Under the pieces are notes generated by a model. The model ran no database searches, was not told where the DNA came from, and saw only the letters and a list, made by a program, of their open reading frames with translations. Shown here in pieces: positions 31,750 through 44,716 of a stretch of DNA of 45,978 nt (the stretch's first letter is position 1; each line of letters begins with the position of its first letter). Made by a program: the position numbers and the translations under genes. The stretch spans positions 1 to 45,978 of the forward strand of contig VFGE01000032.1 of NCBI GenBank assembly GCA_009392515.1, given 5' to 3'. Source of the stretch: SAR202 cluster bacterium. GTDB taxonomy: Bacteria; Chloroflexota; Dehalococcoidia; Lucifugimonadales; UBA6952.

Positions 31750-32418
31750 ATGGCAAATTCAGGTTTGGAGATAAAAGTTCAAAAAAGAGATGTTATTGGG
31801 AAAAATGTTCGTTTCCTTCGTAAAAACGGAAAAACACCAATACACCTTTATGGTAATGGTATCGAATCGGTTTCTTTAGAAGTAGAAACTGATGAGTTAA
31901 CTAGACTCCTAAATAGAGCAGGTCCAAACACACCAGTATCTGTAACAATTGATAATGATAAAGAGCCTCGTTTTACATATTTAAGAGAAGTTCAAAAACA
32001 TCCTGTAACAGAAAAAGTTTTGCATGTAGATTTTCTTGAAGTATCCACTACCCAAGAAATTATATCTAATATTTCAGTAGGTTTAGTCGGTGAATCTCCC
32101 GCCATTAAATCTTATGGCGGAAGAATAAACCAAACCATGAGAACCATACGTGTTTCAGCACTACCGAAAGATCTACCGGAAAGGCTTGAGATAGATCTAT
32201 CGTCTTTAGATTCTTTCGAAAAAGTTTTACGTGTGTCTGATATTAAAATTTCCAGCGATGTTTTATTACTAACAGATTCTGACTCTGTAGTGGTAAGGAT
32301 ATCTGCGCCTAGAAGGGCTGCAACTACTGGCGGTAGCGGCGAAATTCAAGAACAACCTGTTTCAGACGATACTTCTTCAGACGAAAACGCTGAAGAAGAA
32401 ATTACAGAAGATCAATAA
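31750..32418 (+). CDS. rplY: 50S ribosomal protein bL25, CTC form
   Basis: This 222-residue protein has the N-terminal 5S rRNA-binding bL25 domain (about 1-95: RDVIGKNVRFLRKNGKTPIH, and near the end VEKVLHVDFLEV-like sequence) and the C-terminal TL5/CTC beta domain (about 100-190: ISVGLVGESPAIKSYGGRINQ, LPERLEIDLSSL). An acidic tail of Glu/Asp/Ser closes it. It binds 5S rRNA in the large subunit; the long form is linked to stress response in Gram-positives. It is a single gene with its own promoter, and its stop is one base from the convergent fmt stop. Confidence 0.93.
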   Translation: MANSGLEIKVQKRDVIGKNVRFLRKNGKTPIHLYGNGIESVSLEVETDELTRLLNRAGPNTPVSVTIDNDKEPRFTYLREVQKHPVTEKVLHVDFLEVSTTQEIISNISVGLVGESPAIKSYGGRINQTMRTIRVSALPKDLPERLEIDLSSLDSFEKVLRVSDIKISSDVLLLTDSDSVVVRISAPRRAATTGGSGEIQEQPVSDDTSSDENAEEEITEDQ

Positions 32419-32419
32419 T

Positions 32420-33388
32420 TCATCCCAGAGTTGAGCCAATAAAATTAGGCTTACCACGAACAAAATCTTCAATATCCTGTGAAGAACTTCCTTCTAGTTT
32501 CACATGTGTGAGTACAAGAAAACCTTCGCCACATACAACCACTGTAACAACTTCGCCATTCAACACTGTTTGGGTAACATAACCCGGGTTTTTATTATGC
32601 TCAGAGCTAAGTTGTGGATTAATCACTGAAAAACCTTTTTCAATGATTAATCTTTTGGAAGAAAAACTTGTAAAAGTACTTGGCCAAGGATTAAAAGCCT
32701 GAATTTGTCTGGCTATAAATTCGCAATTAGAGCCCCAGTCAACAAACCCATCATCTTTTGTTAACAGTTTGGTAGTTGTCGCATTTTCTGTATTTTGCTT
32801 AATGGGGGTTATTTCTCCAGACACCCATGGCGGAATTGTTGAAACAAGAAGTTTAGCCCCGATTTGAAATAATTCTTCAGTTAATGTTTGTGTATTGTGT
32901 TCAGCCCTTATACTGAATTTTTCGGCTGCTAGTATTGGTCCAGTATCCATGCCTTCATCAAGCATCATTATACTTACTCCTGTTATTGACTCACCATTTA
33001 ACAATGCAGAGGCTACGGGAGAAGGGCCTCGATATTTTGGTAACAAAGATGGATGTATATTAATCACTCCATATCTAGGGATATCTAATATTTCTTTAGG
33101 TATTATTAACCCATAGGCCGCTACAATAATTAAATCTGGGGATAATTGTATAATTTGTTCAATTATGGCATCATTTCTAAGAGATTTGGGTTCAAATATG
33201 GGTAGGTTCAAACTTTTTGATAATTGTTTTACTGGGCTTTCTAATAATTTTTTTCCTCTTCCGTTAAAACTATCTGGCCTTGTAAAAACACCAACTATGT
33301 TTATTTTTTCTTCACTGATTTTTTGAAGCACATGGGCAGATATTTCAGGAGTTCCAAAATAAATTATATTGATTTTTGATGATTTCAT
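32420..33388 (-). CDS. fmt: Methionyl-tRNA formyltransferase
   Basis: This 322-residue enzyme formylates initiator Met-tRNA with 10-formyl-tetrahydrofolate. The N-terminal formyltransferase domain starts INIIYFGTPEISAHVLQ. It has the catalytic Asn/His in INIHPSLLPKYRGPSP near 108-123 and the Asp in MMLDEGMDTGPI near 145, followed by the C-terminal OB-like tRNA-binding domain from about 210. Length is normal. It is divergent from dnaA across 132 bases and convergent with rplY with essentially no gap. Confidence 0.96.
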   Translation of the reverse strand: MKSSKINIIYFGTPEISAHVLQKISEEKINIVGVFTRPDSFNGRGKKLLESPVKQLSKSLNLPIFEPKSLRNDAIIEQIIQLSPDLIIVAAYGLIIPKEILDIPRYGVINIHPSLLPKYRGPSPVASALLNGESITGVSIMMLDEGMDTGPILAAEKFSIRAEHNTQTLTEELFQIGAKLLVSTIPPWVSGEITPIKQNTENATTTKLLTKDDGFVDWGSNCEFIARQIQAFNPWPSTFTSFSSKRLIIEKGFSVINPQLSSEHNKNPGYVTQTVLNGEVVTVVVCGEGFLVLTHVKLEGSSSQDIEDFVRGKPNFIGSTLG

Positions 33389-33520
33389 TTTTTTTTGCCT
33401 TTAATTCTTACTTTGGTACAGAATACATCAAAATTCATAAAAATTGCATTTCTTCTCTCTTGGAGTTGAGTGCGGTAAAAGTGATATCCTAGTTTTCCGG
33501 CCCTAACTAACATCGGAATT

Positions 33521-34891
33521 ATGTTTAATATGACACAAAATATCCCTGAACATAATAATATTTGGTCAGCAACTCTTGGTTTACTTGAAATGAAAATTCC
33601 AAAAGCCAGCTTTGAAACATGGCTAAAAGATACTTTTGTTTTGAATTCCAAAAATAACGTACTGACTATTGGAGTTTCCTCATCGTTTGTTTCAGAATGG
33701 TTGAATAAAAAGATGAAAACTCAAATAGAATCAGCCGTCAAAGAAGTAAGTTCTATAAAAACAAAAGTCGTTTTTACTGTTGCAAAAAATAGAGAAACCC
33801 CTACAAAAACACCAGCTAATATAGACATAAAAGCAACAAAAAAACCAGTTTCAAAATTTAATAAATCAAATTACCGGTTTGATAATTTTGTAGTAGGTGA
33901 ATCTAATAAGCTTGCATATTCATCTGCATTAAGTGTAGCAACAGAGCCTGGAGGAAGATTTAATCCTCTATTTATTTACTCAGGTGTTGGATTAGGTAAA
34001 ACCCACCTTTTACAATCAATAGCGGACCTGATGCGAAAAAATAGCCAAAGCATACTTTATGTAACCACTGAACAATTTACTAACGAATTTGTAACAGCTA
34101 TACAGAAAAGAAAAACAGATGAATTTCGCGCCAAGTATCGAAATGCTGATGCGCTAATCTTAGACGATATACAATTTCTACAAGGTAAAGAACAAACACA
34201 AGAAGGACTGTTCCATACTTTTAACGATCTACATGATTCAAACAAACAAATCGTATTAGCATGCGACCGACATCCCCAATATGTTGATTTTATCCATGAC
34301 CGTTTATTGTCCAGATTTCAATGGGGACTAGTCGCAGATATTCAAAGCCCAGAAATAGAAACTAGAGCAGCTATTGTTTTAAAAAAAGCCGAGCAAGCAA
34401 ATATACCCATAACTGAAGATGTAACTAGCCTTCTGGCCACTTTATATACCCATAGTATTAGAGAACTAGAAGGTAATTTAAATAAATTGATTGCCTACTC
34501 AGAATTTTCTGGGGTAAATATTAATTTAGACTTGGCAAAATTAGCACTTGGTCTTGATACTGAATCTTATAACTTGCCAATCACTGAGGTTTCTCCTGAA
34601 GATTTAATATCAATCGTTGCCAAATATTACAAAATTAGTGTAGAAAAAATACAAACCAAACAAAGTGGCAGGGTTTCTGAGCCTCAAAAAGTTGCTATGT
34701 ATCTTGCACTAGAAATCTTAAAATTAAGGTATCAAGAAATTGTGCCACTTTTTGGAAACTGGACAACTAAAACAATTAGAGCCTCAAACAATTGGGTAAA
34801 AAATGAATTGTCTTCAAATAATGAATTTGCAAAAAAAATAACTTCAATAAAATCAATTATTTCACCAAAACTATCTTATAAACTAAATTAG
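33521..34891 (+). CDS. dnaA: Chromosomal replication initiator DnaA with divergent domain IV
   Basis: This 456-residue protein begins with domain I (IWSATLGLLEMKIPKASFETWLKDT). The AAA+ domain III is intact: Walker A GVGLGKTHLL near 156-165, DDIQFLQGKEQTQE, the box VII-type Arg region HDRLLSRFQWGLVADI. Domain IV is unusual. The DnaA signature GGRDHTTV inside the helix-turn-helix reads GNWTTKTI (residues 412-419), and the basic residues before PQKVAMYL are mostly lost. In E. coli Arg399, Asp433, His434 and Thr435 read the DnaA box; none is kept. Start ATG 33521 is assumed; ATG 33530 is an alternative. It lies near gyrB but without dnaN or recF. Confidence 0.92.
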   Translation: MFNMTQNIPEHNNIWSATLGLLEMKIPKASFETWLKDTFVLNSKNNVLTIGVSSSFVSEWLNKKMKTQIESAVKEVSSIKTKVVFTVAKNRETPTKTPANIDIKATKKPVSKFNKSNYRFDNFVVGESNKLAYSSALSVATEPGGRFNPLFIYSGVGLGKTHLLQSIADLMRKNSQSILYVTTEQFTNEFVTAIQKRKTDEFRAKYRNADALILDDIQFLQGKEQTQEGLFHTFNDLHDSNKQIVLACDRHPQYVDFIHDRLLSRFQWGLVADIQSPEIETRAAIVLKKAEQANIPITEDVTSLLATLYTHSIRELEGNLNKLIAYSEFSGVNINLDLAKLALGLDTESYNLPITEVSPEDLISIVAKYYKISVEKIQTKQSGRVSEPQKVAMYLALEILKLRYQEIVPLFGNWTTKTIRASNNWVKNELSSNNEFAKKITSIKSIISPKLSYKLN

Positions 34892-34954
34892 TTGAGATTA
34901 TAATAATATATTTGTATAGTTAATTATAAATATATTAGGATTGGATGATTTTAA

Positions 34955-35506
34955 TTGGAAAAACATCGCCATTTTTCATTACTAGAAAACGAAAAAATTG
35001 TTTATCTTTTCGGCAATGAAACAGGAAAAATTCATACAAGTAGATACAGTCTTACAGATAATAATGACTCAGAATATTTAACTTTAACTAATTTTCGACT
35101 AATTTATGAATCTTTTACCGAAGAAAAAGATATAACGCAAGTAATCAAAACAAACGATATATCAAGCACAGAGCTATCTTTACCCAAAAAAACTTATACA
35201 GATTTATTATGCGGAATAGGTTTTGGTATTGCCTCTCTTGTTTGGGTGTGGTTTTCTTTTGCCTTTGGATTTACTTCTATACTTACTTGGCTTATTTTGT
35301 TAACAATAGCTGGATTCTCTGGTATTAATCTTTTTTCATATTTTGCCACTCAAGAAATCCCAAAATTAAAAATTAAAACTGGCTCAAACGAACTCGTTAT
35401 TGATTTAATGTCAAAGACTGCATTATCTGACTCAGAGGAAATTATCAATTTTATATATAGCCAAAGCGCCGGAATTGGTATACCCATATCTATAGATAAT
35501 TACTAA
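34955..35506 (+). CDS. Hypothetical membrane protein, two TM segments, PH-like N-terminal part
   Basis: This 183-residue protein is not recognised as a named family. Residues 1-75 look like a soluble beta-rich domain (EKIVYLFGNETGKI, EYLTLTNFRLIYES), with the L-T-N-x-R-L-I-Y pattern seen in bacterial PH/GRAM-like domains. Residues about 85-130 form two adjacent hydrophobic helices. A short cytosolic beta part, LKIKTGSNELVIDL, follows. The TTG start is set by GGATG about 8 bases upstream. It lies between dnaA and tsaD, and its last 17 bases overlap the convergent tsaD end. Confidence 0.7.
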   Translation: MEKHRHFSLLENEKIVYLFGNETGKIHTSRYSLTDNNDSEYLTLTNFRLIYESFTEEKDITQVIKTNDISSTELSLPKKTYTDLLCGIGFGIASLVWVWFSFAFGFTSILTWLILLTIAGFSGINLFSYFATQEIPKLKIKTGSNELVIDLMSKTALSDSEEIINFIYSQSAGIGIPISIDNY

Positions 35507-36527
35507 CAGGGTCATCTTCTATAGACAAACCAGGATTAACGTCTAACTCTATATTATGCTCATATTGCTTAAAATAAGCACAGGCTGCTATCATGGCACC
35601 ATTATCAATACACAAACCGGGGCGAGGTATTACCACCGGAACTTGCCTGATTTCGCCTTCAATTCTTTCTCTCAATCTAGCATTTGCTGCCACTCCTCCT
35701 CCAACAATAGCCATTTTGGCACCAGATATATTAATTGCCCGTTCTATTTTCGTCGCTAAGACTTCTGTAATGGCTTCCTGAAATTCCCAGGCCATTCTGG
35801 AGACAAGTTGTGAGTCTTGTGTCAAATCAAAACCAATTTCTTTAGATTTTGCCCTAGCCTTATTTAAAAAAGCTGTTTTTAAACCACTAAAGCTAAAATC
35901 CAAACCTTCTCTTAACAGTGGCCTAGGCATAACTAAATCAGATACATCTAATTCATTTGATGCGTGTTTTTGTATTTCAGGCCCCCCTGGGTAACTTAAG
36001 CCAAGAACTCTAGCAGCTTTATCAAAAGCTTCTCCCGCGGCGTCATCTTTGGTTTGGCCTAAAATTTCATAATCTCCGTGATTTCTCATCAAAATTAATT
36101 CCGTGTGGCCACCAGAAGCAACCATACAAATCAAAGGAAATTTTGGAGAGAAGTTGTCCTTTTCCAACCAGGAGCTATATATATGTGCCTCTATATGGTT
36201 AATACCTAATAAAGGTTTTTTGTAAATATAGGCTAGGGTTTTTGCAAGATTTACACCTACTAAAAGAGATCCAGCCAATCCAGGGCCAAAAGTTACTCCT
36301 ATTTTATCTACTTCTTCAATTTTTACATTTGCATTATTTAGCGATTGTTGCAAAGCTGGGATAATTGCAGCAACATGGGCTCGCGATGCGATCTCGGGCA
36401 CAATCCCCCCATGTTGGGCATGGATTTCCACCTGAGAACGAATTACATTTGATAATAAATTCGAACCATTTTCTACAACAGATATGGCCGTTTCGTCACA
36501 AGATGTTTCTATTCCTAGTATTATCAT
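35490..36527 (-). CDS. tsaD: tRNA N6-threonylcarbamoyladenosine transferase TsaD
   Basis: This 345-residue ASKHA-fold enzyme transfers threonylcarbamoyl to A37 of ANN-decoding tRNAs, with TsaB, TsaC and TsaE. It starts with the phosphate-binding segment ILGIETSCDETAISVVE. It holds the iron-binding pair in NHIEAHIYSSW near 110, then VASGGHTELILM and the C-terminal GGVAANARLRE and CIDNGAMIAACAYF. Length is normal. Divergent from gyrB across 172 bases; its 3' end overlaps the membrane-protein gene. Confidence 0.97.
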   Translation of the reverse strand: MIILGIETSCDETAISVVENGSNLLSNVIRSQVEIHAQHGGIVPEIASRAHVAAIIPALQQSLNNANVKIEEVDKIGVTFGPGLAGSLLVGVNLAKTLAYIYKKPLLGINHIEAHIYSSWLEKDNFSPKFPLICMVASGGHTELILMRNHGDYEILGQTKDDAAGEAFDKAARVLGLSYPGGPEIQKHASNELDVSDLVMPRPLLREGLDFSFSGLKTAFLNKARAKSKEIGFDLTQDSQLVSRMAWEFQEAITEVLATKIERAINISGAKMAIVGGGVAANARLRERIEGEIRQVPVVIPRPGLCIDNGAMIAACAYFKQYEHNIELDVNPGLSIEDDPVSNYL

Positions 36528-36595
36528 AATTCTCCATTCAATACTATATATTGTGCATTCTTTACTATTAAATACAAATATTGGTGTTTATTACT

Positions 36596-36624
36596 TTGAC
36601 TGTATATATCTATTTTGTTAAAAT
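36596..36624 (+). promoter_or_regulatory. Promoter of gyrB
   Basis: TTGACT (36596-36601) and TAAAAT (36619-36624) with 17-base spacing, 75 bases upstream of the gyrB ATG. One DnaA-box-like 9-mer, GTATACACA (36634-36642), lies just downstream, but it is solitary. Confidence 0.55.
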
Positions 36625-36690
36625 AACGTATCCGTATACACAAACATAGAACATATTACAAGACGATTAAAAGATAGTAAAACTTAATGA

Positions 36691-39240
<2,550 letters not shown>

Positions 39241-39248
39241 GGAAGTAG

Positions 39249-40637
39249 ATGGTGGATGCAACTAAAGATACGCTAAGCTCATACGCATACGATTTATCAT
39301 TTTCAGATCTAGATGGCAAAACGGTTCATCAGGTTAAAAGAACATTATTAGATAGTATTGGTTGCCTCTTAGGCGGATTTAATTCCAAAACAGCAATAAT
39401 AGCAAGAAAAATAGCCCCAAAGGCCACCGAGTCTCCCATATCAAGAGTTATAGGAACAGCAAATAATACAACCATAGATGTTGCTGCGTTTGCCAATGCT
39501 GTTGCTATTAGATATCTAGATTTCAATGATTCTTATTTTTCACCTGGTGGTGGCCATCCTAGCGATATGGTGTCAGCTTCACTTGCAGCAGGCGAATACC
39601 AAGAATCTACCGGAAAAGAGATTATTACTAGTATAGCTCTAGCATATCAGGTATTTTGTGGTATATCAGATGTTGCACCCATGTTGGGTGGCAGAGAATG
39701 GGATCAAGGTTTATGTGTGGGGATAGGCGCAGCGCTTTCCTCGGGCAAATTACTCGGTTTGTCACAAGAAGAATTGGGCCACTCACTTTCCATCTCCTTA
39801 GTTCCTAATTTACCACTCCTTGCCACAAGAGTGGGTGAACTATCCTTATGGAAAGGTTGCGCTACAGCTAATGCAACAAAAGCAGGAGTGTTTGCCTCAG
39901 TATTAGCAAAAGAAGGAATGGAGGGCCCTTATGAGCCCTTTGAAGGAAAAAATGGTCTATGGGAAAAATTAAACGTGACTCCAACAAAACCTCAGATAAT
40001 AAGTATTTCTTCTGCTATATCAGCACGATTTGAGCCTTTTGGCATAACAAGAACAGATTTTAAATTTTTTCCAGCCCAAATTCTCACCCAAGCACCTACA
40101 GGCCTTGCATTAGAAATAGAAAAATTAATTAATATAAACGAAATAAAATCTATACAAATAGAAACATATTCTAATTGTGTAAGTACTCCAGAAAGCCATC
40201 CGGAAAAATGGGATCCCAGAACAAGAGAAAGCGCCGACCATAGTATTCCTTTTATGGTTGCTTCTGCTTTTTTATATGGAGATATAGGAATAAATAGCTT
40301 TACTGAAGAAAGAATAACAAGTCAAGAAATCAGAAACATTATCTCAAAAATAAAAATCATAGAAAACCCATCGTTTACAAATAAACGGCCAGAGGAATCA
40401 AACTGTAAAATGAGAGTGGAACTTATTGGAGGGGAGATTATTACCAAAGAAACTAGTTATCCCAAAGGCCATTACAAAAACCCTTTAACTGACGATGAGC
40501 TAACAAACAAGTTTACAAATCTGGCAGAAACCATGATCTCCAAAGAACAGTCATCAAAAATATCCACATTGATTTGGGATTTAGAAAATCAAAAAAACTT
40601 AACAACGTTATTAGATGCTTTGATTATCGAAAGGTAA
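39249..40637 (+). CDS. MmgE/PrpD-family protein
   Basis: This 462-residue protein has the family start SYAYDLSFSDLDGKTVHQVKRTLLDSIGCLLGG. It continues with RYLDFNDSYFSPGGGHPSDMV, AYQVFCGISDVAP and KGCATANATKAGVFASVLAKEGMEGP, then a smaller lid domain near 265-400 (KFFPAQILTQAPTGLALEIE). Known members are 2-methylcitrate dehydratase, cis-aconitate decarboxylase and relatives; the substrate here cannot be read. It lies eight bases after gyrB and four before the next gene, so read-through from gyrB is likely. Confidence 0.9.
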   Translation: MVDATKDTLSSYAYDLSFSDLDGKTVHQVKRTLLDSIGCLLGGFNSKTAIIARKIAPKATESPISRVIGTANNTTIDVAAFANAVAIRYLDFNDSYFSPGGGHPSDMVSASLAAGEYQESTGKEIITSIALAYQVFCGISDVAPMLGGREWDQGLCVGIGAALSSGKLLGLSQEELGHSLSISLVPNLPLLATRVGELSLWKGCATANATKAGVFASVLAKEGMEGPYEPFEGKNGLWEKLNVTPTKPQIISISSAISARFEPFGITRTDFKFFPAQILTQAPTGLALEIEKLININEIKSIQIETYSNCVSTPESHPEKWDPRTRESADHSIPFMVASAFLYGDIGINSFTEERITSQEIRNIISKIKIIENPSFTNKRPEESNCKMRVELIGGEIITKETSYPKGHYKNPLTDDELTNKFTNLAETMISKEQSSKISTLIWDLENQKNLTTLLDALIIER

Positions 40638-42046: not shown

Positions 42047-42673
42047 TTAAATGTCTGAGTTAAAAGGGCCTGTTCTTAACCAATCTTCAACTAGTTTAAT
42101 TTCTTTCGAGGAAAGATAGTTATTTTTGAGTGCGGTTTGTAAGATTTCGTCAATCCCAAACAAAAATGAGTGTTTTATTTGTAGTTCTTGAAATCTTTCT
42201 TTGGCTAGTTTGGATTTATATGAGCAAATACTATAGCAAGAAAGAACTTCTATATTTTCTGAGTGAATCGCTTCAACAGAACGAATTGCAGACCCCCCGG
42301 TGCTAGTTAAATCTTCTATAACAATGACCTTTCGTCCCTTATCTATACTGCCTTCGATTTGTTTTCCTAGACCATGATCTTTTGGCTCTGGTCTAACATA
42401 TGCTAAGGGTTTATTAAGCCTTTGTGCTAATAAAGATGCCCAAGGAATACCAGCAGTAGCAACTCCCACTACCACGTAGTTATTAAACCTTTCTCTTTCG
42501 ATTAGATCAGCTATCTTATTTATAATCTCTCCACGTGTTTCTACATCCGATAAGAGCTTCCTCATATCACAGTAAATTGGACTATTTACACCTGAAGCTA
42601 ATATATAAGGCATTGTTGGATCTACGACAACAGCCTGGTTTGATAAAATTTTTTCTGGAATTGTTTTATTCAT
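42047..42673 (-). CDS. pyrE: Orotate phosphoribosyltransferase
   Basis: This 208-residue enzyme makes OMP from orotate and PRPP in pyrimidine synthesis. The PRPP-binding motif VIVIEDLTSTGGSA lies near 115-128, and the flexible-loop Lys/His segment RPEPKDHGLGKQIEG near 94-108. An N-terminal VDPTMPYILASGVNSPIYCDMR segment matches the family. Its start overlaps the nadD stop by one base. It is the last gene of the obg-nadD-pyrE run. Confidence 0.95.
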   Translation of the reverse strand: MNKTIPEKILSNQAVVVDPTMPYILASGVNSPIYCDMRKLLSDVETRGEIINKIADLIERERFNNYVVVGVATAGIPWASLLAQRLNKPLAYVRPEPKDHGLGKQIEGSIDKGRKVIVIEDLTSTGGSAIRSVEAIHSENIEVLSCYSICSYKSKLAKERFQELQIKHSFLFGIDEILQTALKNNYLSSKEIKLVEDWLRTGPFNSDI

Positions 42674-43260
42674 TACACTTGTTTTTTATATAAATTATTT
42701 TTAAAAATATACTCTTCTACGTTTTTAGGCACAAGTCCTTGTAACGAATCATTGGTTTGAACCTTTTTTCTTATTAAAGTGCTGCTTATTTCCTCTATTT
42801 CTTCATCAATTATGGTAACGGTATGATTTATAGTTTCTGGTAGAGTGTCACCCTTGCGAGTAAATAATATTATCCTCACAATTTCGATAATTTCTTCTGG
42901 ATTTTTCCATCTACTTATTTCTTTATAAGAATCACTGCCTAAAATTAAATGATATTCTTTTTGGGATTTATCTACACCTAGTTCCTTTAGTGTGTCTATT
43001 GTGTATGTGTTTCCTAGTCTCTTTATTTCTATATCAGAAATACAAAATGAAGAATTATTTCCTATAGCCAAATTAACCATATTTAATCTATGGATTGGAC
43101 TTGTAATCAACGTGTCTTTTTTCATCCAAGGATTACCTGCTGGTATAAATAAAACTTTATCCAAATTGCACTCAACCATCGCTATTTCTGCTAACTTTAT
43201 GTGTGCTGTATGAATAGGGTCAAAAGTTCCTCCAAGTATGCCTATCTTATTTATTCCCAT
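42673..43260 (-). CDS. nadD: Nicotinate-nucleotide adenylyltransferase
   Basis: This 195-residue enzyme adenylates nicotinate mononucleotide. The nucleotidyltransferase motif GGTFDPIHTAHIKLAE (with the TxxH pattern) is at 10-25, FIPAGNPWMKK near 40-50, and the C-terminal ISSTLIRKKV near 160. It supplies deamido-NAD for the NadE at 16794. Its start overlaps the 3' end of obg by 10 bases, a common obg-nadD arrangement; rsfS, often next, is replaced by pyrE. Confidence 0.96.
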   Translation of the reverse strand: MGINKIGILGGTFDPIHTAHIKLAEIAMVECNLDKVLFIPAGNPWMKKDTLITSPIHRLNMVNLAIGNNSSFCISDIEIKRLGNTYTIDTLKELGVDKSQKEYHLILGSDSYKEISRWKNPEEIIEIVRIILFTRKGDTLPETINHTVTIIDEEIEEISSTLIRKKVQTNDSLQGLVPKNVEEYIFKNNLYKKQV

Positions 43261-44480
43261 ATGAACTCTTTCTTGCCTATTTTTACATTGTCTCCTTGTT
43301 TTACCCCTGCCTTTTCAAGAGCATCTATTACCCCCATAGTATTTAGCTCTTTTCTTAATTGTATTCTTGCAGCAAAACTTCTTTGGTCCGGTAACACAAC
43401 GAGTCTTTCAGCTCTAGAATTAAAAACAACATATCCTTCGCTGTTTTTTTCAACCTTAGTTATGTTTTTTTCTTCAGTTGTATGAATAACATTGTTTTTT
43501 TCCAATTGTTTTTTGTATAAAAATTCTTTATTTAAAATATTTATGGCTTTCTCTTTTATATGCCTTATTATGTTTTCTGATTCTTTTTCATACTGGATTA
43601 AGTCTACATATTCAGCTTGTTTTTGCTCAATATATTCTTCCCCTAATAAATCAAGCTCTTCCTTAATAAATGTAATTTCTGGACTACGGGTATATATAGT
43701 ATTTGAAGCTAGAAATTGGGCAATATTTTCAATATTTATATCAACTTCATCAAGTTCTAAAACTAGGATTATAACCTTGGCCCTTTTAATTAAATTTAAG
43801 CTTTCTTGCAACTGATCAACATTGTTATTTGAAAAAGAGATTAATCCAATTTGGTACTTAGTCCAATTCAGTTCTACTTCTCTTACCTGAAAGGAGCTAT
43901 GTGGTGCGATATTAACCTCTTCATTCTGTTGACCACGGTTAATATTGGTTATACTTTCAAATATACTTTTAGCATATCCCGAAAGATCACCCATTACACA
44001 AATATCTACCAAGGGGAAAAGTTCCATTACTACTTTTTTTTCTTCCCCAGGACCTCCTGTTTCTGCTAAAAGAGGTATTTTATTTCGAGAAGTAGAAAAG
44101 CGAGTGTTTCCTTTTCCATAAACTCCCCCCTGAGCCACCAATAACTGTTCCCCTTCTTCCATTATTTCTCCTATAATTTTCCCAGTTACTGTGTCACTAA
44201 CCCTAGTTCCCAACGGAACATTTATAATATTATTTTCCCCTGCTTTTCCTGTTTTCTTCCTACTTTTTCCCTCTTCTCCCCTGGCTGCTTTTATAATATT
44301 TCTACCTTTAATTTTTCGTAAGTCGTATTCTGCGGTAGTCCCTTTAAGAATAACACTTCCACCAAACCCACCATCTCCTCCGTCAGGTCCACCTTTAGGA
44401 ACGTATTTTTCTCTTCGGAAACTAATACATCCGTTTCCACCAGTTCCTCCCTGAAAAGTTATATTTATTTCTGTTTCCAC
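43251..44480 (-). CDS. obg: Obg-family protein with degenerate GTPase domain
   Basis: This 409-residue protein has an intact glycine-rich Obg fold (1-158: FRREKYVPKGGPDGGDGG, GNTRFSTSRNKIP) and a C-terminal OCT domain (about 346-409). The middle G domain (about 158-318) has lost all GTPase motifs. G1, normally GFPNxGKST, is GDLSGYAKS (164-172); the G2 Thr, G3 DxPG, G4 NKxD and G5 SA cannot be found. Beta strands at the expected places remain (VDICVMG, IGLISFS, AKVIILVLEL). It is in the normal obg-nadD position. Obg normally assists 50S ribosome assembly and is essential, so this copy is either GTP-independent or a paralogue. It starts with GTG. Confidence 0.9.
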   Translation of the reverse strand: METEINITFQGGTGGNGCISFRREKYVPKGGPDGGDGGFGGSVILKGTTAEYDLRKIKGRNIIKAARGEEGKSRKKTGKAGENNIINVPLGTRVSDTVTGKIIGEIMEEGEQLLVAQGGVYGKGNTRFSTSRNKIPLLAETGGPGEEKKVVMELFPLVDICVMGDLSGYAKSIFESITNINRGQQNEEVNIAPHSSFQVREVELNWTKYQIGLISFSNNNVDQLQESLNLIKRAKVIILVLELDEVDINIENIAQFLASNTIYTRSPEITFIKEELDLLGEEYIEQKQAEYVDLIQYEKESENIIRHIKEKAINILNKEFLYKKQLEKNNVIHTTEEKNITKVEKNSEGYVVFNSRAERLVVLPDQRSFAARIQLRKELNTMGVIDALEKAGVKQGDNVKIGKKEFIWE

Positions 44481-44639: not shown

Positions 44640-44716
44640 GGGCGATTAGCTCAGCTGGTTAGAGCGCAGTCCTGATAAGACTGAGGTCCCTGGTTCGAGT
44701 CCAGGATCGCCCACCA
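44640..44716 (+). tRNA. tRNA-Ile (anticodon GAT), CCA encoded
   Basis: The cloverleaf folds fully. The acceptor GGGCGAT pairs with ATCGCCC, the D stem is GCTC/GAGC, the anticodon stem CAGTC/GACTG carries the loop CTGATAA with anticodon GAT at 44674-44676, and the T stem CCTGG/CCAGG carries TTCGAGT. The discriminator is A and CCA is encoded at 44714-44716. This isoacceptor often sits in the 16S-23S spacer; here it is on its own. Confidence 0.97.

Follow-up and report, generated by a model that had tools for sequence, protein, structure and literature searches.

Obg is a near-universal ribosome-assembly switch protein. For Escherichia coli ObgE, PMC4028186 reports that K27, K31, R76, R82, R136 and R139, which are located on three loops, contact the peptidyl-transferase centre, and that the substitutions K27E/K31E or R136G/R139G nearly abolish binding to the 50S subunit. 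According to the same text, apo ObgE binds 50S weakly and guanine nucleotides, ppGpp most of all, raise this binding. In PMC6982127, nucleotide binding is reportedly abolished in ObgE* N283I and D286Y, which support viability as the sole copy, but another binding-dead allele, G166V, does not; the essential job of Obg was inferred from these mutants to need no nucleotide binding. The gene itself is variably retained: PMC12641178 states that more than 99% of symbiotic or parasitic bacteria keep obgE, that approximately 60% of CPR bacteria do so, and that in the CPR class ABY1 obgE can be missing with der kept. A yeast pre-40S assembly factor, Tsr1, has all five G motifs disrupted and is described in PMC4895721 as an inactive structural mimic.

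Here, we describe a bacterial Obg protein that has lost every one of these motifs. Among the matches listed in the open-licence literature, none described a motif-less Obg. To that extent the statement in the first-pass annotation of this DNA that no such case was known holds for Obg itself, but it has to be narrowed in view of Tsr1 (PMC4895721) and the ObgE alleles reported to be viable without nucleotide binding (PMC6982127).

Genomic context and domain content of the window obg gene

The window, meaning the whole 45,978-nucleotide stretch of SAR202 cluster bacterium DNA that was analysed, carries obg next to nadD, with the following features:

43251..44480, minus strand: obg, 409 aa with a GTG start, predicted pseudo-GTPase Obg; PF01018 and DUF1967 over cut-off, no G-domain model
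44013..44480, minus strand: Obg fold, residues 1-156; PF01018 match at residues 5-154
43491..44012, minus strand: decayed G domain, residues 157-330
43965..43991, minus strand: G1/P-loop site, residues 164-172; GDLSGYAKS in place of GxPNxGKST (ObgE GMPNAGKST)
43887..43910, minus strand: G2/switch I site, residues 191-198; IAPHSSFQ in place of DYPFTTxx, Thr lost
43830..43850, minus strand: G3/switch II site, residues 211-217; D-x-P of DxPG deleted
43491..43742, minus strand: second half of the G domain, residues 247-330; expected place of G4 and G5, neither recognisable
43257..43460, minus strand: OCT (DUF1967/PF09269), residues 341-408
42673..43260, minus strand: nadD, overlapping obg by 10 nt; named from its sequence and from matches next to obg in relatives
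42047..42673, minus strand: next gene after nadD, which we take from its sequence to be pyrE-like

Reading of the ORF revealed no internal stop in its 409 codons, in agreement with the open frame noted previously. Pfam recognised the Obg fold (PF01018; E 4.4e-48, 163.3 bits against a cut-off of 27) and the OCT domain (PF09269; E 1.6e-12, 47.8 bits against 27), and the protein also passed the NCBIfam OCT model TIGR03595 (44.7 bits against 37.65), while no GTPase-domain model was found in it by Pfam at E values up to 1. The curated NCBIfam equivalog cut-offs for Obg were all missed: 171.6 against 280.25 bits for TIGR02729, 209.6 against 406 for NF008955, 169.7 against 300 for NF008956 and 147.3 against 377 for NF008954. 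By sequence, the closest PDB relatives are Thermus Obg (1udx) and E. coli ObgE.

The gene lies in its usual place before nadD, as had been claimed: nadD adjoins obg in 82 of the 93 obg-bearing loci of the order that were examined, several of the other 11 loci being incomplete. Because the flanking domains are real Obg domains, the two reading frames overlap and the nadD neighbourhood recurs in the order, the resemblance to Obg is not due to chance. Judged by its sequence, the window gene appears to be Obg by descent, with a product that fails the definition of an Obg GTPase. The genome comprises 1.55 Mb in 62 contigs and is 98.45% complete. Its single PF01018 match is the window obg, and a second, canonical obg copy was therefore not found by this search.

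A tRNA-Ile (GAT) gene, the only tRNA in the window, is located just upstream of obg (44640-44716, plus strand). Further away, genes that are presumably dnaA-like and gyrB-like from their sequences lie within 32000-40000, where the GC skew changes sign; a replication origin may lie near this region, around 5-10 kb from obg. GyrB has approximately 640 aa in many bacteria, and the gyrB-like gene of the window (36700-39240) is longer, at 846 aa, with what seems to be an insert before the C-terminal part.

Loss of the nucleotide-binding motifs

Motif positions were read from an alignment of the window Obg with E. coli ObgE. The string GDLSGYAKS occupies residues 164-172, exactly as numbered in the first-pass annotation, and the Lys171-Ser172 pair left in the G1 region is shifted one place late and follows Ala instead of Gly. 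At G2, the YPFTT of ObgE aligns with APHSS, and at G3 the DIP of ObgE is deleted, leaving Gly alone. G4 and G5 have no counterpart in the window Obg, in a region where the ObgE alignment is unreliable. All five nucleotide-binding motifs are lost from the window Obg, a claim of the first-pass annotation that was borne out both by this alignment and by the motif scoring of 188 Obg rows described below.

A frameshift that would restore the motifs was sought in six frames and none was found. The 174 G-domain codons contain no stop, where 9.3% per codon would be expected from base composition (chance approximately 4e-8), and GC by codon position is coding-like (0.43/0.21/0.23). The pattern GxxxxGK[ST] is absent from all six frames, and frame 2 of the coding strand contains one TKLD among 40 stops. 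When the G domains of 88 relatives were compared with the six frames, 15 weak matches were obtained (best E 0.023), with no signal of a shifted frame.

Comparison of Obg proteins across the order

PF01018 was found in 190 of the 201 genomes of the order with at least 80% completeness. Motifs were read in 190 Obg rows from the order survey and the relatives search, a set that includes some genomes below 80% completeness, holds two rows from some genomes and leaves part of the order's obg places outside; 188 rows were scored after two truncated ones were left out. The GK[ST] of G1 is kept in 186/188 rows, the only two failures being the window Obg and L056 (Lys to Arg), and the G2 Thr is kept in 187/188, with the window Obg as the sole row lacking it. 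Conservation was lower for the PG of G3 (176/188), G4 as [NT]KxD (161/188) and G5 as S[AGSTV] (170/188). The window Obg alone fails all five motifs.

The strict G4 pattern is missed by 27 rows, 17 of which feature SKxD in mostly otherwise largely intact proteins. SKxD was rejected as a sign of G4 decay, since 13 Obgs of a large-genome genus, otherwise largely intact, carry SKLD, as does one other Obg. The thirteen Obgs of this genus, g73 (L237, L239, L243, L244, L251, L252, L254-L259 and L275), carry AKPNAGKS in G1 together with SKLD in G4, which appears from these sequences to be a conservative variant common to the genus.

For each domain, identity to the rows from other families was then averaged (88 rows, 5 short ones excluded). 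The first-pass annotation had described the Obg fold and OCT as well kept, and this is how they behave: the Obg fold of the window scores 0.41 (median 0.42; rank 26/88 from the bottom) and its OCT 0.31 (median 0.31; rank 47/88 from the bottom). The G domain has a mean identity of 0.16 against a median of 0.40, the lowest of the 88. Divergence of the window Obg is confined to the G domain.

A profile of full-length relatives scored the window Obg at 256.1 bits, against 236.5 (sd 3.0) when its middle was shuffled, and 0/500 shuffles reached the true score. Taken alone, the first half of this domain gave z 8.3 (0/500 shuffles); the second half gave z 1.9 (19/500), falling to z 0.7 (117/500) with a profile of nearer relatives, and the whole G domain, excised and scored alone, tied with the best of 200 shuffles. 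Homology in the first half, with none detectable in the second, points to a decayed G domain that is recognisable in its first half and by position alone in its second. The earlier identification of the middle domain as a G domain is thus upheld for the first half and not demonstrably so for the second.

Alignment with ObgE also showed which residues reported to touch the ribosome are retained. K27, K31 and R76 of ObgE are present in the window Obg as K25, K29 and R74, and R136 is replaced by Lys, R82 by Ala and R139 by Leu. The Arg at the R82 and R139 positions is also missing in most members of the order.

Graded motif decay in relatives and lack of a detectable Obg in one family

G4 is altered beyond SKxD in eight rows: L059 (MGKE), L099 and L100 (THCD), L065 (SKSN), L055 (NSFH), L060 (NRGD), L069 (TKSH) and L076 (NKSE). 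G5 failed in all eight and the P-loop is kept in all eight. The obg gene of G052 (L058; 75% complete) has an in-frame stop that divides it into two open stretches, 259 and 132 aa long; in G018 (L055), from the same genus, the obg frame is open over 390 aa and lacks G4 and G5. The decayed rows and the window belong to families f1, f12, f18, f26 and f29, and every genome concerned is at most 1.6 Mb. With SKxD counted as lost, 12/13 G4-lost rows come from genomes of at most 1.6 Mb, versus 23/77 others, and a kinship-corrected comparison of genome size, with 3 supported independent pairs, is without power. Small-genome Obgs that keep the P-loop and have G3/G4/G5 weakened or lost include L043, L065, L066, L069, L070, L081, L099 and L100 (g29), and genus g57 has two of the same type (L075 and L076). 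It is possible, from their sequences, that these g29 and g57 proteins are intermediates, with either a different bound nucleotide or no nucleotide binding at all.

Selection was assessed by the Nei-Gojobori method on 16 hand-picked pairs of relatives, with dS near saturation in several. In four of the six decayed pairs, defined by at least one member without G3, G4 or G5, dN/dS is 0.19-0.39 for the G domain versus 0.03-0.16 for the Obg fold. In the other two, the G domain is not above the Obg fold (0.27 versus 0.35, and 0.17 versus 0.25), the latter being the pair with the in-frame stop, compared over 97 codons. Eight of the ten largely intact pairs have both ratios, with 0.05-0.15 for the G domain and 0.04-0.10 for the Obg fold, and two are saturated. 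Because of these differences between the two domains, partial motif loss in relatives is mostly accompanied by selection that is relaxed, chiefly in the G domain, yet remains purifying.

A second sequence of the window family's Obg was not found among the relatives searched. The only other family member examined, G001 (same genus as the window, 92% complete), lacks both obg and nadD, and the gyrB-obg DNA of the window matches only two tRNAs there. G001 was therefore rejected as a case of Obg loss, since the missing nadD and the tRNA-only matches make an assembly gap an equally likely explanation.

In family f5, PF01018 was found in 0/3 genomes even at E 10 (L115, L116 and L117, corresponding to G005, G042 and G137; 82, 91 and 94% complete, from 3 genera). 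All three have nadD-pyrE, with a gene that we take from its sequence to be fmt-like directly upstream of nadD, where obg would be expected, and all three keep Der and HflX. If gaps are independent, incompleteness alone would produce three such misses with a chance of approximately 0.001. This pattern of matches indicates a probable loss of Obg outside the CPR, and it follows that Obg is perhaps losable in this order. The position of f5 relative to the window's family was not resolved by Der and HflX from 7 genomes. The window genome has ten PF01926 places at E values up to 0.001, named by NCBIfam as Der (two), HflX, IF-2, SelB, TypA/BipA, YchF, EF-Tu, EF-G and an ABC-transporter ATPase; none of the ten was named Era, EngB, RbgA or MnmE in this PF01926 search.

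Predicted structure

AlphaFold2 modelled the window Obg alone with a mean pLDDT of 32. A second model, for which the alignment consisted of the window Obg and five Obgs from IMG/VR contigs, reached a mean pLDDT of 57, with the Obg fold mostly above 60 and the G domain at approximately 30-55. Its middle domain features strands at residues 158-164, 195-200, 206-215, 234-240, 271-273 and 294-296 and helices at 169-178, 221-231, 248-259, 281-290 and 301-328. The model matches 1udx with Z 18.7 and rmsd 5.1 over 305 residues (Foldseek, VIA-align), and residues 157-328 match Rab/Ras and pre-60S GTPase chains with Z of approximately 11-12 and rmsd mostly 3.3-4. Persistence of the G fold, raised in the first-pass annotation, is supported by the Ras-like order of these predicted strands and helices and weakened by the pLDDT of the domain. 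Residues 157-328 may accordingly be modelled as a Ras-like fold at low confidence, and the canonical Obgs in the small alignment may have imposed that fold.

Discussion

We consider it somewhat better than an even chance (roughly 0.55) that this protein is a pseudo-GTPase Obg that works as a nucleotide-independent 50S scaffold. It would be a genuine Obg descendant with a pseudo-GTPase central domain, and the most likely role remaining to it would be that of a scaffold with late 50S-assembly and anti-association functions. The Obg fold would extend its basic loops to the peptidyl-transferase centre, OCT would supply additional contacts and the dead G domain would act as a structural spacer, with binding and release governed by affinity or by other factors. 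The ObgE 50S-contact data, taken with the residues kept in the window Obg, suggest a scaffold of this kind that binds the peptidyl-transferase region without nucleotide, and the ordinary conservation of the flanking domains argues for retained function. We infer that the protein is expressed, binds 50S, does not bind nucleotide and has a cellular role. Several results count against the scaffold: no Obg was detected in f5, ObgE without nucleotide is reported to bind 50S weakly, the G166V allele did not support viability, R82 and R139 are replaced, two of the six decayed pairs have no raised G-domain dN/dS and the pLDDT of the G domain is low. The GTP-independent assembly factor suggested at first pass therefore remains plausible on account of its ordinarily conserved flanking domains, and is tempered by graded decay in relatives and by f5.

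The wider reading, to which we give slightly less than an even chance, is that this is a naturally evolved nucleotide-independent Obg used in 50S maturation and the extreme of a trend within the order. This trend would begin with loss of guanine recognition (G4 and G5) in proteins that retain the P-loop, go on to the complete GTP site and end, in a different family, with the gene itself. Judging from this case, Obg may be retained for something other than its GTP switch.

The main competing explanation, unlikely in our estimate but well ahead of the others, is that Obg is in terminal decay: assembly would no longer need it, the G domain would have gone first and the rest would be a passing remnant. 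Graded motif decay in several families and the lack of a detectable Obg in f5, which keeps Der and HflX, make it possible that a dispensable Obg is being observed late in its decay; the in-frame stop in the G052 obg and the loss of Obg from part of the CPR, as reported in PMC12641178, agree with this. General decay should, however, hit all three domains, and terminal decay is disfavoured because the window protein has not diverged further in its Obg fold and OCT than relatives whose G domains are intact; its frame is also open. An assembly or binning artefact, in which the gene would be a chimera or carry sequencing errors and the true obg would have been missed, is improbable. The assembly is of the metagenome type and in 62 contigs, but it is 98.45% complete and has a single obg at the usual place before nadD, the G domain has a coding-like composition without a frameshift signature, and homology extends across the domain's first half, which therefore contains no foreign insert.

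Two further explanations would give the altered domain a new activity. Non-canonical binding of a nucleotide or other ligand through the displaced Lys-Ser of GDLSGYAKS seems very improbable: the pair does lie next to the old P-loop, and the surrounding strand and helix are kept in the model, but the Gly before Lys, the switch I Thr, DxPG and any NKxD were lost together, and no relative supports the new pattern. Slightly less probable again is that the second half of the G domain was rebuilt for a new task, such as protein or RNA contact. A 17-residue insertion seen in the alignment, the long predicted helix 301-328 and the failure to detect homology with G domains in this half would fit such a change, but Pfam gives no significant family for the stretch and no relative shows a conserved new motif.

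If the scaffold reading is correct, the conserved core of Obg would be a scaffold that probes the peptidyl-transferase centre, and control by GTP and ppGpp would be an optional layer. A natural Obg without the site would then provide an independent evolutionary test of the inference drawn in PMC6982127, as well as a ready reagent. The partly decayed relatives would represent intermediate stages, and f5 would show where to seek compensating changes in the ribosome or in other factors.

Among known systems, the window Obg shares with Obg/CgtA/ObgE (TIGR02729; 1udx, 5m04, 1lnz, 4csu) the Obg fold, the domain order, OCT and the obg-nadD neighbourhood and, by a low-confidence model, the Ras-like middle fold; unlike these proteins, it lacks all five motifs and falls under the NCBIfam Obg cut-offs. 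The CPR/Patescibacteria (PMC12641178) are comparable to f5 as small-genome bacteria in which obgE can be missing with der kept (class ABY1), and differ from the window in that the gene is missing, in place of a motif-less protein. The binding-dead ObgE alleles resemble the window protein as an Obg predicted to be without nucleotide binding, but are single engineered laboratory substitutions in an otherwise intact G domain. Tsr1 (PMC4895721) is likewise a GTPase-related ribosome-assembly protein with five disrupted motifs, but it is eukaryotic, acts on the small subunit, has an EF-Tu/SelB-like architecture and has a solved structure.
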